From: Marinifilum fragile JCM 15579 | GTDB taxonomy: Bacteria; Bacteroidota; Bacteroidia; Bacteroidales; Marinifilaceae | DNA length: 64,000 bases | Direction of reading: 5' to 3' | Assembly (NCBI RefSeq): GCF_001310955.1 | Contig: NZ_BAZX01000003.1 | Span: forward strand, 248,001-312,000 | In this document: piece after piece, positions 20,115-33,487 of the stretch | How positions within the stretch are numbered: the stretch's first letter is position 1 | How the letters are laid out: each line of letters begins with the position of its first letter | The notes under the pieces: model-generated | Told to the model about the DNA's origin: nothing | The model's input: the letters and a program-made list of their open reading frames with translations, nothing else | The model's database searches: none | Program-made: the position numbers and the translations under genes

Positions 20115-22184
20115 ATGAAAATGAAAAACTTATATAGATTTTTTGCACTTGTTGTAGTTGTATGTTTTGTATTTACAGCTAGTGCTCAGGTTGACCGAAC
20201 AAAAGCTCCTAAGGCGGGTCCGGCTCCAAAAGTACAATTGGGTGATTACGATAGTTTTACCCTTAAAAACGGAATGAAAGTATTGGTTGTTGAAAACCAT
20301 AAGTTACCTCAAGTTGGTTTTGCAATCTCGTTGTTAAATGATCCTATTGCTGAAGGTGACAAGGCTGGTTATTTGTCGATTATGGGGCAACTTCTTGATC
20401 GTGGTACAGCAACAAGATCTTCAAAGCAAATTGCTGATGAAATTGATTTTATTGGTGCTGAATTGGGAGTTTCTTCATCAGGAGTTGATGCTGGTGGTTT
20501 GTCCAGATATAAGGAACAAATTCTTGAATTGATGGCTGATGTGTTGTTGAATCCAACTTTTCCACAAGAGGAATTTGATAAAATCGTAAAACAAACTTTA
20601 TCAGGTTTGGAAGCCAATAAAACAGATCCTAAATCAATGGCAGGAAATATGAGAAGCAAAGTGCTTTATCCTGCCAATCACCCTTACCGAGATGTTGTAA
20701 CAGAAGAGACTGTTAAGAGCATTACTATTGATGATTGTAAAAAGTACTACGAAACCTATTTTAAGCCAAATAAAGCATTAATGGCAATTGTTGGTGATAT
20801 TACTGCCAAAGAGGCTAAAAAGTTGGTTAAAAAGTATTTTGGAGAGTGGGAAGATACTGAAGTTCCAAGTCATTCTTATGAAATGCTTGCAAAAATGGAA
20901 GGTAAGCGTGTAGTATTGGCAAATAAAGATGCTGCTCCTCAGTCTTTGGTGAGAATCTACAACTCATTTGAATTGAAGAAAGGTAATCCTGATGTGATTC
21001 CAGCATCAGTTATGAATGCAATGTTAGGACGTGGTTTTTCTGGATTATTAATGAAAAATTTGCGTGAAGATAAAGCATATACTTACGGTGCAGGCTCTAG
21101 ATTATATTCAGATAGATTGGTTGGTGGTTTTTACACTAGTTCAGAAGTTAAAGCTGAAGTAACTGATAGCGCTTTAATGGAAATGGTTGTTGAAATGAAT
21201 CGAATCAGAGATACGAAGTTGACTCAAGATCATTTGAATATGACCAAAGCAACTATGGCAGGTGACTTTGCCAGATCTCTTGAAGATCCAGGTACTATTG
21301 CAAGATTTGCAATGGCTATTGAACGTTACAACTTGCCTTCTGATTATTATGCAACTTATCTTGAAAAATTAGATAAAGTTACTTTGGAAGATGTTCAGGC
21401 AATGGCTAAAAAGTATGTTGATCCTAATAACGCAGTTTACTTGGTTGTTGGTGATAAAAAATACAAAACGAGATTGGCAAAGTTAGATTCTGATGGTGAA
21501 GTTGAAGAATATGACTACAAAGGTGATATCGTAAAAGAAGATCCTAATGCTATTCCAGAAGGATTGACCTGTAAATCAGTAATTGAAAATTACGTTGCTG
21601 CAATTGGAGGTCGTGATAAGTGGGAAGCTGTAAAAGACATTAGCATCAAAGGAGAAATGAAAATGGGTCCAATGAGTATTAATGTTGAGACGGCACAGAA
21701 AAACAATGAGAAATTCTGTATGAAAATGACCATGAATGGCCAGGTAATGCAAGCAATGTATTACAATGGGATTGCTGGTAGAGTAGTTGCACAGGGGCAG
21801 GAAATGGCAGCCAATGAAGCACAATTGGTTGGATTTAAACAACAAGCACAAATGTGTCCTGAACTATCTATGGAGAAATTAGGTTATGAAATGGAACTTG
21901 TTGGTGCTGAGAAAGTAGATGGTGAAAAAGCTTATAAACTGGAAATTAAAGACCCACAAGGAAATTCAAGATTTGATTTCTTTAATGCCAATACAGGTTT
22001 GAAAGTTAAGACCGTTGCACAGCAACAAGGCATGAGCATGATCATGTTGTACAAGGATTACAAAGAAGTTGATGGCGTGAAGTTTCCATTCCAAACCATT
22101 ACAAAGATGGGACCACAGGAAATGCCTTTAACCATTAAAGAATTGCTTGTAAACAAAGGTGTGGATGATTCAATTTTTAACTAA
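20115..22184 (+). CDS. M16 family peptidase partner with C-terminal LolA-like domain
   Basis: A 689-residue secreted protein: signal peptide ending at about residue 24 (TASAQ), then two M16 half-domains to about residue 470. The HxxEH zinc motif is absent (the corresponding place reads LSIMGQLLDRGT), but the substrate-binding R/Y region AYTYGAGSRLYSDR is present, as in non-catalytic M16 partners. An additional region of about 200 residues (from LTCKSVIENYVAAIGGRDKW) resembles LolA/outer-membrane lipoprotein-sorting-like domains found attached to Bacteroidota peptidases. It is presumably cotranscribed with the active M16 gene upstream and ends at a good terminator. Confidence 0.9.
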   Translation: MKMKNLYRFFALVVVVCFVFTASAQVDRTKAPKAGPAPKVQLGDYDSFTLKNGMKVLVVENHKLPQVGFAISLLNDPIAEGDKAGYLSIMGQLLDRGTATRSSKQIADEIDFIGAELGVSSSGVDAGGLSRYKEQILELMADVLLNPTFPQEEFDKIVKQTLSGLEANKTDPKSMAGNMRSKVLYPANHPYRDVVTEETVKSITIDDCKKYYETYFKPNKALMAIVGDITAKEAKKLVKKYFGEWEDTEVPSHSYEMLAKMEGKRVVLANKDAAPQSLVRIYNSFELKKGNPDVIPASVMNAMLGRGFSGLLMKNLREDKAYTYGAGSRLYSDRLVGGFYTSSEVKAEVTDSALMEMVVEMNRIRDTKLTQDHLNMTKATMAGDFARSLEDPGTIARFAMAIERYNLPSDYYATYLEKLDKVTLEDVQAMAKKYVDPNNAVYLVVGDKKYKTRLAKLDSDGEVEEYDYKGDIVKEDPNAIPEGLTCKSVIENYVAAIGGRDKWEAVKDISIKGEMKMGPMSINVETAQKNNEKFCMKMTMNGQVMQAMYYNGIAGRVVAQGQEMAANEAQLVGFKQQAQMCPELSMEKLGYEMELVGAEKVDGEKAYKLEIKDPQGNSRFDFFNANTGLKVKTVAQQQGMSMIMLYKDYKEVDGVKFPFQTITKMGPQEMPLTIKELLVNKGVDDSIFN

Positions 22185-22204: not shown

Positions 22205-22230
22205 AAAGAGGCTGCAATTGTAGCCTCTTT
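22205..22230 (+). terminator. Terminator after M16 peptidase pair
   Basis: A 9-bp stem AAAGAGGCT / AGCCTCTTT with an 8-base loop is followed by a T-rich tail. Confidence 0.9.
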
Positions 22231-22316: not shown

Positions 22317-22346
22317 TTTGCAGATTAAAAATAATGTCTACCTTTG
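22317..22346 (+). promoter_or_regulatory. Bacteroidota-type promoter for candidate small RNA
   Basis: TTTG (22317-22320), an 18-base spacer, and TACCTTTG (22339-22346) match the Bacteroidota sigma-ABfr promoter (TTTG-N19-21-TAnnTTTG) almost exactly. No coding sequence follows on this strand; the expected start is at about 22352. Confidence 0.75.
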
Positions 22347-22351
22347 CACTC

Positions 22352-22492
22352 CGATTCGGGAGTGTAGTGGTTAGGCACGTTGAACGAATCGACATTTCAA
22401 TATGAATTGTATAAGGTTTTAGGGTTAAAGTTTCGTATTGGAAATCATTTTGGGTTAGAAAAAGGCAGGTGGGGACCTGCCTTTTTGTTTTT
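22352..22492 (+). ncRNA. Candidate small structured RNA (about 140 nt)
   Basis: Between the M16 terminator and the 3' end of nadD there is a self-contained transcription unit: a consensus promoter, about 110 bases without a plausible reading frame, and a strong terminator. The predicted RNA begins with a GATTCG/CGAATC stem (22353-22358 with 22385-22390). A long helix of about 13 bp then forms between 22394-22406 and 22432-22445 with one bulged G and a G-U pair, and the terminator hairpin follows. The layout does not match the rod shape with central bubble of 6S RNA, nor tRNA, tmRNA or SRP RNA. I do not recognise a family. Confidence 0.6.
22461..22484 (+). terminator. Strong terminator of candidate small RNA
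   Basis: A 10-bp GC-rich stem AAAGGCAGGT / ACCTGCCTTT with a GGGG loop, followed by TTGTTTTT. The A run on its left could also serve nadD transcripts from the other strand. Confidence 0.9.
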
Positions 22493-22493
22493 A

Positions 22494-23075
22494 TCATTTT
22501 TCGTAGAAGTGCATCTCTTTTAAGTAACTGTATGCCGCCTCAGGCATAAAATATGGAATATCTTTCTTCTCCTTTATAGCCTCTCTAATAAAGCTTGATG
22601 ATATTTCCATAAGCGGTGCATTCACCAAATGAACAGTTCCTTTTAACTCAACTTCTTTATCCTTAAATCCAGGCCTTGGATACACATACAAATCATGTTC
22701 CTGCAGAATTAATTCGTAGTTTTTCCACTTTTCGAAATTTTTCAGGTTATCCGAACCCATAATTAAAGAAAACTCATACTCGGAGTATTTCTCTTTTAAA
22801 TAAGTAAGCGTATCAATTGTATAGGACGGTTTAGGTAAACCAAATTCAATATTTGAGGCTTTCAACTTAGGATATGTCTCAATTGAGCGATTTACCAACT
22901 CTAACCTGTGATAATCGTTAAGTAGACTTGTTTTTTGCTTAAATGGGTTTTGTGGACTTACGACAAACCAGATTTGATCTAAATCGGAGTATTCGGCCAT
23001 GTAATTTGCAATGGCCAAATGTCCAATGTGAATTGGATTGAACGATCCAAAATATAATCCAATTTTAAGCCTCAT
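22494..23075 (-). CDS. nadD: Nicotinate-nucleotide adenylyltransferase
   Basis: NadD joins nicotinate mononucleotide and ATP to form deamido-NAD in NAD biosynthesis. The 193-residue protein has the nucleotidyltransferase signature GSFNPIHIGHLAIANY near the N terminus, WFVVSPQNPFK in the middle, and the C-terminal ISSSFIREAI motif. It starts one base after the gmk stop codon, so the two are translationally coupled in a yicC-gmk-nadD cluster. Confidence 0.95.
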   Translation of the reverse strand: MRLKIGLYFGSFNPIHIGHLAIANYMAEYSDLDQIWFVVSPQNPFKQKTSLLNDYHRLELVNRSIETYPKLKASNIEFGLPKPSYTIDTLTYLKEKYSEYEFSLIMGSDNLKNFEKWKNYELILQEHDLYVYPRPGFKDKEVELKGTVHLVNAPLMEISSSFIREAIKEKKDIPYFMPEAAYSYLKEMHFYEK

Positions 23076-30493: not shown

Positions 30494-33487
30494 ATGAAAT
30501 TTATGAAAAGACTGATATTTATTGTTTGTGCTATTATCATGTCTACTCAATTGATAAGTGCTCAAACAAAGCAGGTTTCAGGTACAGTAACAAGTGCCGA
30601 TGATGGCATGGGAATGCCCGGAGTTTCGGTCGTTATTAAAGGTACAACCTCAGGAACCAGTACTGATATTGATGGAAAATACTCAATAGAGGTCAAGTCA
30701 TCTGACATTTTGGTATTTAGTTTTGTTGGTATGGTGGCTCAGGAAATACCTGTAGGTAGCCAAACTGTTATTAATGTAACTTTAGAAACAGAATCAATTG
30801 GAATGGATGAGGTTGTAGTTGTAGGTTATGGCACGGTTGATGAGAAACGCTTGGTGCAAAATGTTGCTGTAATTGATGAAGAAACATTGGAAAATTTAAC
30901 AGCTACATCTTCTCAGGAACTGTTACAAGGTCGAGCTTCAGGTGTACAAATGACACAATCTTCAGGTGTACTTGGTGCATTTTCCGTTGTTCGTGTGCGT
31001 GGTGTAGGATCTTTAACAGCAGGTTCTTCGCCATTGGTTGTAGTTGATGGAGTTCCAATGAATGATGGTGCAGACTTTAACTACACGAATACACAAGGTG
31101 GTAACACTGGATTGAATACCTTAATTGATATCAACCCAAATGATATTGAGTCGATGAATGTATTAAAAGATGCATCAGCAACCGCCATTTATGGATCTAG
31201 AGGAGCTAATGGTGTTATTATCATTAAAACAAAGAGTGGTTCATATAAACAAGATGCTACTGTAACAGCAGATTTCTATACTCAATGGACCGAATCAACA
31301 GATGAAATTGATATGACAAATGCTGATGAATATAGACAGTATTTGGTGGATATAGGAGATGCTTCTAGTGTTGATGAATTGCCACAAGGATCATTCGATT
31401 GGCCTTCTGCGGTAACACAAACGGGTTTTTCTTATAATGCTGATGTTTCTGTTCGAGGCGGATCTGAACGTATTAAATACTATTTGGGAGCAACTTATTC
31501 TGATCAGGAGGGATTTGTTGTTGGGAATGAAATGCAACGTATTGGAGGTCGTTTAAATTTTGAAGTGAAAGCTAAAGAATATCTAAATATTGGTGCCAAC
31601 CTAAATGTGAGTCAGAATAAGATTGACCGTGTGGGATTGGAGAATTCTACATTTGCTCCAATGACTTCAGCTTACCTCCAATATCCTTGGGTAGAGCCAT
31701 ATGATGAAAATGGAAATTATATAAACACAGGTTTTATTGCTAATGTAATTGCAATAGAGGATCTAGATCTTGATGATGTAGTCTCGAAAAGAAGTTATGG
31801 AAATTTTTATGCAGAATTAGATATTATCGATGGGTTGAAGCTAAAAACCGATTTTGGTTTTGATCAACTCTCAGTAGAGGAAACCGAACGTTCATATGAA
31901 ATTAATTCATCAGGAGGATATGGTTCTAACAGAATTGTTGAGGATTCAAAATGGTTGACTACAACTACGGCGAGTTTTGATAAACTAATTAATGGAATGC
32001 ATAGGGTTACAGCATTAGGGGGTATATCTTATGAGGAATCTACTTTAGGAAGAACTTGGGTTGAAGGATCTAATTTTCCTCTTGATGCCTTACGAAATGT
32101 GGAGTCTGCTGCAGAAAAAACAACAACTTCGCATATTCGAAACCAATGGTCATTATTCTCACTTTTCTCCAGAATTGGATATAGTTATGCTGGGAAATAT
32201 ACTTTTGAGGGGTCGTTAAGACGAGATGGATCTTCTCGATTTGGACCAGAGAATAAATACGGTACATTCTGGTCTGTTGCTGGTGGTTACGCAATTTCTG
32301 AAGAGGAATTTATGCAGGATGCAATACCTGGATTGGACTTCTTAAAACTTACTGCAAGTTATGGTGTGTCAGGTAATGATAAGATAGGATATTACCCTTC
32401 ATTTTTCCTATATACAGCTGGTGCAGATGGAAACTATAATGGTAATCCGGGTTTGGTTCCAGACCAGGCTGGTAATGAAGGTTTGAAGTGGGAGGAAAAT
32501 AAGTCATTAGATCTTGGATTAAGATCTCGTTGGTTAAATGGTAGATTAAGATTTGATGTGACGTATTATCGTAAGGACATTTCTGATTTGTTAATTAATC
32601 AACCACTAACCTATATTACAGGATATGATGCAGTTGCTAAAAATGTTGGTGAAATGCAAAACAGTGGTTTTGAATTTGATATTAATGCTACAATTGTTAA
32701 AACTCCTGAATTGGAATGGAGTGCCAACTTTAATATGACTACTGTTAAAAACGAAATTACTGCTTTACCTAATACAAGTACAGATGTAAATGGATCTAAC
32801 TTTATTGCAGGTACAAGTGCACAAAGAGCAGTAGTAGGAAAATCAGCAAATGAATTCTATTTAATTAGATATTCAGGAATTAACCCTCAAACTGGAGATG
32901 CTGAATGGTTGACTGCAGATGGAGAAAAAACAACTGACCCAGGTGATTCTGACCGTGTTTATGTTGGTAGTGCACAACCAGATTTTTTTGGAGGATTTAG
33001 TACTACATTAAAATACAAGGGCTTCGATTTGAGTGGTTTCTTTAATTACAGTTCTGGAAACAAGATTATGGTTGATGGCTTTAGATTTACAGATCGTGCA
33101 ACAGCTACCTTTAATATTCGTAAAAAAGTATTGAATTATTGGAAGCAGCCTGGCGATAATGCTTATGCCCCATCACCATCAAGTTCTACAGCTGGTATTT
33201 TTGCTCAACGATCAGATTTATTCTTATTTAATGCATCATACTTACGCATGAAGAACTTAACCTTAGGATATACACTACCTGAGTCAACCCTTAATTTAAT
33301 GGGTGGATTTATTAAGTCTGCTAGATTCTATGTTACCATGAATAATGTGTTTACCATTAAGAGTAATGATCTTGAAGGTATTGATCCAGAAGTTACGGAT
33401 GATACCGATCCTCTTGCACAAGGAGAGACTTTCTTTACGCCTCCTCAGTCTAAATCATACATTCTTGGTTTAAGAGTAAGCTTTTAA
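30494..33487 (+). CDS. SusC/RagA-family TonB-linked outer-membrane protein
   Basis: A 997-residue SusC-type transporter: signal peptide to about residue 23 (LISAQ), a carboxypeptidase-D-like domain (VSGTVTSADDGMGMPGVSVVIKGT...) to about 100, the plug starting at DEVVVVGYGTVDEK, and a beta-barrel ending in ILGLRVSF with the terminal Phe expected for outer-membrane insertion. With SusD it imports oligosaccharides, peptides or other large nutrients. The gene is followed two bases later by susD. There is no neighbouring glycoside hydrolase, peptidase or sigma/anti-sigma pair, so the substrate is unknown. A 500-base leader precedes it. Confidence 0.94.
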   Translation: MKFMKRLIFIVCAIIMSTQLISAQTKQVSGTVTSADDGMGMPGVSVVIKGTTSGTSTDIDGKYSIEVKSSDILVFSFVGMVAQEIPVGSQTVINVTLETESIGMDEVVVVGYGTVDEKRLVQNVAVIDEETLENLTATSSQELLQGRASGVQMTQSSGVLGAFSVVRVRGVGSLTAGSSPLVVVDGVPMNDGADFNYTNTQGGNTGLNTLIDINPNDIESMNVLKDASATAIYGSRGANGVIIIKTKSGSYKQDATVTADFYTQWTESTDEIDMTNADEYRQYLVDIGDASSVDELPQGSFDWPSAVTQTGFSYNADVSVRGGSERIKYYLGATYSDQEGFVVGNEMQRIGGRLNFEVKAKEYLNIGANLNVSQNKIDRVGLENSTFAPMTSAYLQYPWVEPYDENGNYINTGFIANVIAIEDLDLDDVVSKRSYGNFYAELDIIDGLKLKTDFGFDQLSVEETERSYEINSSGGYGSNRIVEDSKWLTTTTASFDKLINGMHRVTALGGISYEESTLGRTWVEGSNFPLDALRNVESAAEKTTTSHIRNQWSLFSLFSRIGYSYAGKYTFEGSLRRDGSSRFGPENKYGTFWSVAGGYAISEEEFMQDAIPGLDFLKLTASYGVSGNDKIGYYPSFFLYTAGADGNYNGNPGLVPDQAGNEGLKWEENKSLDLGLRSRWLNGRLRFDVTYYRKDISDLLINQPLTYITGYDAVAKNVGEMQNSGFEFDINATIVKTPELEWSANFNMTTVKNEITALPNTSTDVNGSNFIAGTSAQRAVVGKSANEFYLIRYSGINPQTGDAEWLTADGEKTTDPGDSDRVYVGSAQPDFFGGFSTTLKYKGFDLSGFFNYSSGNKIMVDGFRFTDRATATFNIRKKVLNYWKQPGDNAYAPSPSSSTAGIFAQRSDLFLFNASYLRMKNLTLGYTLPESTLNLMGGFIKSARFYVTMNNVFTIKSNDLEGIDPEVTDDTDPLAQGETFFTPPQSKSYILGLRVSF

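Follow-up and report, generated by a model that had tools for sequence, protein, structure and literature searches.

A small-RNA gene and its neighbours

The window (the whole 64,000-nucleotide stretch of DNA analysed) comes from a Marinifilum-type bacterium (Marinifilaceae) with a genome of 4.7 Mb, and its positions 22339-22487 on the forward strand hold a small-RNA gene. Upstream lies the gene of a 689-amino-acid protein (20115-22184) with its own terminator (22205-22230); downstream and convergent lies nadD (22494-23075). An earlier sequence-only reading had placed the RNA between the terminator of an M16 peptidase and nadD. The nadD part of this placement stood, with a model match over the cut-off, whereas the upstream protein gave only weak matches to M16-type models, below the cut-off.

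The promoter described in that reading was found as a -33-type TTTG element (22317-22320, forward strand), an 18-base spacer and the -7 box TACCTTTG (22339-22346, forward strand). Conservation of the TTTG element was looser than that of the -7 box, which has the form TAnnTTTG in 14/14 orthologues. The TTTG-N18-TACCTTTG-type pattern occurred four times in the window against 2.65 expected, no more rarely than by chance, and the weight of the promoter therefore comes from the retention of TAnnTTTG in all aligned orthologues and not from the rarity of the pattern. Promoter spacing would put the transcription start at 22350-22353, giving an RNA of about 136 nt (22350-22487, forward strand). The strong terminator claimed earlier is an intrinsic one at 22459-22486 (forward strand), with 12 pairs, the top GGTGGGGACC and a T-run, and an A-U/U-A swap occurs in 9 of 19 distinct alignment rows. 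Three terminator-like sites were counted in 601 bases, two of them being the RNA's own terminator, compared with 0.4 expected.

A DNA search of 57 genomes returned 14 clear orthologues (the window's own included), which were 80-100% identical, and a covariance model was built from these 14, with matches above 120 bits taken as orthologues. Conservation in relatives, on whose absence the proposal was to be given up, was found: such orthologues were present in 23 of 56 family genomes from seven genera, with one match above 120 bits in each of the 23. Carriers include Marinifilum, Labilibaculum, Ancylomarina and other Marinifilaceae, and a single genome of a carrier genus, 63% complete, had no RNA match. 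An exact two-word pattern matched 19 contigs, all 19 titled with Marinifilaceae genera or the family name. A sequence search for the RNA in plasmids gave no match. The sequence upstream of the promoter diverges among the orthologues, while TAnnTTTG (14/14), the RNA body and the terminator are kept.

nadD was the next gene, on the opposite strand, in 10/14 loci, and the M16-type protein of the window preceded the RNA in 11/14. By reading of the sequence, an aquaporin-like gene lies downstream instead in L014, L015 and the Ancylomarina-type L064 and L078, and a hydrolase-like gene in genome G014 (locus L016), where the upstream gene also differs. A convergent gene came next in 13 loci; the fourteenth, L007, stops at the contig end. 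Because the next gene is convergent wherever it is visible and the neighbours differ between lineages, the RNA is not a leader.

The longest plus-strand open reading frames (ORFs) of the 14 orthologues measured 9-23 codons and had not one frame in common, in agreement with the statement that no plausible protein is present. An encoded small protein could claim a 12-codon GTG-start frame common to eight close orthologues, but this frame is lost or altered in the other six, and single-base and 8-base length changes occur within the RNA. In view of these length changes, we regard a small protein as improbable in the extreme. Judged from its sequence, with its own promoter and terminator, no ORF and no leader arrangement, the stretch is a real, conserved, independent non-coding small-RNA gene, which bears out the candidate small RNA of the earlier reading.

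Fold and compensatory changes

An Rfam 15 covariance scan of the window yielded no match at the gathering score, and a tRNA and tmRNA search of the window found neither, consistent with the impression that no standard small RNA family fits. No published title naming this RNA was found among the matches listed, in a search with most subscription literature outside its scope. A tRNA-like 5' part (AGTGGTTAGGCA) was considered and ruled out, there being no tRNA match and an insertion at this place in G020 and G030.

RNAalifold, the model alignment and single-sequence folding gave two hairpins before the terminator. Hairpin A (22353-22390, forward strand) consists of an outer helix (22353-22357/22386-22390) and an inner helix (22362-22365/22375-22378), and hairpin B (22394-22445, forward strand) of one helix, 22394-22406/22432-22445, which contains a G-U pair and a bulged G. 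The second helix was there exactly as the sequence-only reading had drawn it, and the first helix of that reading corresponds to hairpin A. Folding from 22351 recovered both hairpins, including the outer helix of A, and folding from 22347 gave a competing CACTCC/GGAGTG hairpin at the 5' end. In single-sequence folds, L016 formed a longer 5' hairpin, and in the Ancylomarina-type L014 the linker paired with the 5' end of the RNA. A pseudoknot of CACTCC/GGAGTG and CGATTC/GAATCG was dropped: most of its first strand would fall ahead of the likely start, and G014 has lost GGAGTG.

RNAalifold on an unfitted alignment returned hairpin A, hairpin B and the terminator, with changes on both sides in 6 of 31 pairs. 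The model-fitted alignment of 28 orthologues (19 distinct), which leans to the model, had 95.2% of cells paired against 35-49% when slid, both-side changes in 14/32 pairs, and a covariation score of 0.286 (shuffles 0.123). Further pair types in this alignment did not exceed the shuffled level, 328 of 500 shuffles having as many, and part of the double changes in helix B reflects a shifted register in Ancylomarina-type rows. The inner helix of hairpin A and hairpin B show compensatory changes, and the outer helix of A is near-invariant and of little information. Compensatory changes, which the earlier reading had named as the support to look for, therefore back every helix except the near-invariant 5' one.

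With the terminator included, the fold energy lay at z -3.7 to -3.8 relative to shuffles; without it, z was only -1.2 and 22 of 200 shuffles were as good, so that fold energy alone proves little beyond the terminator. This weak signal, together with a promoter pattern no rarer than chance, would also fit a conserved terminator and DNA element that does not act through a regulatory RNA, such as an insulator separating convergent genes. We consider such an element very unlikely, however, given that promoter box and RNA body are kept in 14/14 orthologues next to a diverging upstream spacer, that two hairpins carry compensatory changes, and that the unpaired words described below are kept across seven genera.

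Exposed words and predicted targets

Three stretches that are unpaired in the consensus fold carry conserved GGUUAG/GGGUUA-type words. These are the loop A word TAGTGGTTAG (22365-22374, forward strand), which is lost in G014; the loop B word TTTTAGGGTTAAA (22417-22429, forward strand), conserved as GGTTTTAGGGTTAAA and present as GGATTTAGGG in Ancylomarina types; and the linker word CATTTTGGGTTAG (22446-22458, forward strand), conserved as ATTTTGGGTTAG. Loop B is a candidate pairing segment for the HU leader, and the linker is one for susC-like and NhaC leaders.

TYTAACCCWAAA, which is complementary to loop B and the linker, was searched in eight genomes, seven of carriers and one of a non-carrier; overall it was no commoner than its own reversed form. 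Its non-self sites fell up to 75 nt before a start codon in 22/77 cases in the carriers and 0/5 in the non-carrier, with start codons assigned mechanically and one of the 22 sites (L364) doubtful. Sites of 120 permuted words lay at starts in 8 of 146 cases (p=4.5e-6 against the true word), and those of CCC-keeping permutations in 6 of 66 (p=0.005), this control covering 864 kb of the own genome and the true word seven genomes. Within the same 864 kb, the true word was at starts in 2/5 cases, its reverse complement in 0/5 and its reversed form in 0/3. When orthologous sites were collapsed by hand, 16/71 remained at starts (p=3.6e-4, or p=0.04 against CCC-keeping words). Distinct 9-mer sites for linker and loop B numbered seven for the complement (3.0 expected), none for the same sense (3.0) and four for the reversed words (5.5). 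Linker 8-mers showed no excess (5 against 4.1 expected; reversed words 7 against 3.6), and two fixed-spacing antisense patterns spanning the start codon showed no enrichment relative to their reversed controls. The excess of word complements at translation starts is thus supported but modest.

Preference for susC genes was measured on 30 starts, taken from 30 of the 44 susC matches of the own genome, against a background of 84 and then 630 other starts, the latter possibly holding a few further susC genes. The linker preferred susC starts (-8.59 against -7.18 kcal/mol, p=2.4e-4, 0/40 shuffles), the preference of loop A was marginal (p=0.018, 2/40 shuffles), and loop B had no average preference (p=0.31, 11/40 shuffles, 30 against 630 starts). 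CTAAC stood before the start in 12/30 susC genes and 33/630 others. The start context AAATTTATG, observed in 9 of the 30 susC genes (L280-L309), forms with CTAAC a leader signature common to part of these genes. Predicted pairing with the linker was comparatively good, at -13.0 kcal/mol, for the start region of a susC-like gene within the window itself, at about 30569-33484 (L290).

The mRNA of the nucleoid protein HU (PF00216) and loop B form 21 contiguous predicted pairs that end at the start codon. With the core loop, this pairing reached -22.7 kcal/mol, ranking first of 661 starts and equalled by 0 of 2000 shuffles, and in five genera with their own loops it reached -20.2 to -26.9 kcal/mol. 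The site was found in five of the seven carrier genera searched, with no exact site in G020 and G014. The HU leader is near-identical from promoter box to start codon in five genera (L407, L390, L358, L424, L356), which suggests from sequence that the leader itself is regulated. HU was picked from a genome-wide search, in which the chance of an equally long match somewhere in the genome is ~0.2 by tail extrapolation, a rough estimate. The HU mRNA is the best candidate target, though the whole of its leader is conserved. In both the own genome (G000) and G011, start-site matches were also found for an MFS transporter and for butyrate kinase (TIGR02707), and once each for NhaC (TIGR00931), SusC-like (L417, L430) and SusD-like (L400) leaders and others.

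The reading that we favour, and hold to be rather probable, is that the RNA is an independent trans-acting antisense repressor of translation initiation, like GibS and FopS of Bacteroides. The RNA would be transcribed from about 22350 and would expose its GGUUAG/GGGUUA words in both loops, A and B, and in the linker. These words would pair with CUAACC/UUAACCC just upstream of start codons, and the pairing would block translation initiation and lower the amount of protein. Predicted targets are the HU mRNA via loop B and, with less confidence, certain susC-like mRNAs, NhaC, the MFS transporter and butyrate kinase. As a 21-pair duplex is impossible in a 25-nt loop with helix B intact, full pairing with HU would need helix B to be opened, or would have to start as a loop contact.

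Three similar words, all conserved and unpaired, could instead titrate an RNA-binding protein, in the way RsmZ titrates RsmA/CsrA. The best Rfam match by E-value, below the cut-off, was indeed PrrB_RsmZ (RF00166; 26.5 of 44 bits), and several hairpins, repeated words and a strong terminator are points of likeness to this family. The repeated word of RsmZ is GGA, whereas that of the present RNA is GGUUAG, and the RNA scores below the PrrB/RsmZ gathering score; moreover, a larger search with a limit of E<=0.05 did not return the match for orthologues L011, L014 and L016. The clade lacks RRM proteins, the obvious binding candidates in Bacteroidota: RRM_1 proteins were found neither in the own genome nor in any of the 24 genomes of the carrier genera, against 28/32 other family genomes. 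This absence counts as one event, since the carriers appear to form one clade. Hfq gave four matches of 18-21 bits in the 56 genomes, none over the cut-off. The start-site excess of complements would be unexpected from a pure decoy, and we judge a decoy role unlikely, keeping translational repression as the preferred reading.

Multicopy FopS-like RNAs and possible regulation in Marinifilaceae

The window model also matched weaker places, at up to 41 bits, many of them in tandem arrays. A word scan of 20 stretches gave 54 copies that have TTTCATAG..TTAGGTTA in common and then a T-run hairpin; upstream of most of them stands a TAnnTTTG-like box. Copies in the tandem arrays are spaced about 180-280 bases apart, as in L093 (seven copies), L091 671-1854 (six), L082 668-1638 (four), L089, L090 and L092; these copies mostly have their own promoter-like box, and a CTTTAAC-like upstream element recurs in many. 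A module model of 20 rows, the window row included, with rough E-values, matched the own genome in 17 places under a limit of E<=0.1; the present RNA is one of them by construction. Others lie, for example, at C15:49172-49732, C13:18288-18800, C2:145793-146050, C2:198527-198764, C2:229993-230067, C22:41980-42223 and C56:3921-3975, and the own-genome matches are partly in tandem. An Rfam scan of 13 module loci matched nothing in 12 and, in the remaining one, just a tRNA next to the module, and a literature search with the module word returned nothing on Bacteroidota small RNAs among the matches listed. The multicopy module favoured susC starts, at -20.6 kcal/mol against -15.0 for other starts (p=3e-10, 0/40 shuffles).

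At E<=0.01, the module model matched 53/56 family genomes and 107/393 Bacteroidales genomes (own family included), many of the 107 being near the E limit. Among the best loci outside the close clade, 11 of 16 start with TTTCAT, two more (L176, L177) at contig ends being left out. Intergenic copies also occur in plasmid-labelled records of Bacteroides finegoldii (four), B. ovatus (one) and Phocaeicola massiliensis (one) (L270-L275, from about position 400); three of these records carry miaB, dprA, or dnaN and rpoD and look chromosomal. TAnnTTTG is present in four of these six Bacteroidaceae copies, and their terminators end about 60-65 bases after TTTC. By analogy, the six copies are probably FopS or its relatives. 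In the available text of its report (PMC11697453), the FopS family of B. thetaiotaomicron has 14 copies of about 65-70 nt with a canonical promoter and a start-codon-binding 5' seed, is bound by the RRM protein RbpB, and is described as highly conserved within Bacteroidaceae. The multicopy module resembles this description in size, promoter and seed position, and its probable identity with FopS is drawn from the description.

A paralogue query found no match in plasmids; in portal genes of Aeromonas phages it had three matches, all of them weak. A 48-base class query matched 38 phage records weakly. The order-wide module word is carried by 56 viral contigs (L214-L269), and around the Marinifilaceae word, present in a single viral contig, no promoter or terminator was seen by eye.

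The window RNA could itself be a divergent single-copy member of this family that mainly represses susC-like mRNAs. It shares with the arrays the terminator top GGTGGGGACC, which occurs once in the window, and the TAGTGGTTAG word; the model built from the window RNA matches the arrays, and its linker prefers susC starts. A family profile with the terminator had the RNA as its best match in the window, weakly (9.6 bits, E 0.08). Homology was not confirmed, however, when tested without the terminator: a profile from which the terminator columns had been cut, along with the rows of L094 and of the window RNA, gave the RNA 0.8 bits (E 43), and 34-86 of 500 shuffles, depending on the consensus used, reached its similarity to the module outside the terminator. 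The RNA is also single-copy and twice as long, and we think membership doubtful.

As an independent repressor, which remains our preferred reading, the RNA can be set beside known Bacteroidota small RNAs. In the accessible part of the FopS report, FopS has a canonical promoter, as the window RNA does, and start-codon targeting with susC as a target, which for the window RNA are predicted (PMC11697453), but the window RNA occurs once per genome, has about double the length (about 136 nt) and is folded. The FopS partner RbpB is an RRM protein (PMC11697453), and RRM proteins are absent from the carrier clade; with no RRM_1 match in its 24 genomes, an RbpB-type partner was not found there. GibS of Bacteroides thetaiotaomicron, as the available text portrays it, is likewise intergenic, has its own promoter and an intrinsic terminator and measures about 145 nt; it pairs with start-codon regions of mRNAs, as is predicted for the window RNA (PMC7366714). 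By the same description (PMC7366714), however, GibS has little folding, a non-canonical promoter and a seed that is single-stranded at the 5' end, whereas the window RNA has a 5' hairpin, TAnnTTTG as a canonical box and its words in the loops and the linker. Rfp18 of Flavobacterium psychrophilum is, in the part of its report at hand, another conserved, structured Bacteroidota small RNA not antisense to a gene; it differs, by description, in being flavobacterial and in having metalloproteases as reported targets (PMC9723704).

The window RNA is kept through seven genera of a marine clade, has a fold and offers, in the HU leader, a concrete target prediction. Most experimentally studied Bacteroidota small RNAs are from gut Bacteroides. 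A joint reading, speculative and to our mind having only a small chance of holding as a whole, would be that marine Marinifilaceae run a FopS-type network of start-codon-targeting RNAs without an RRM protein. The window RNA would then be its single structured member, a multi-loop hub tying the nucleoid protein HU and ion and energy transporters to SusC uptake at the outer membrane, and the seed module UUUCAUAG...UUUAGGUUA would mark an order-wide class of Bacteroidales regulatory RNAs older than the RbpB partnership. The multicopy RNAs point to FopS-like control of susC outside Bacteroidaceae as well, in a clade without the RRM protein, and FopS-like RNAs in such a clade bear on how RNAs of this kind work without the known partner protein.
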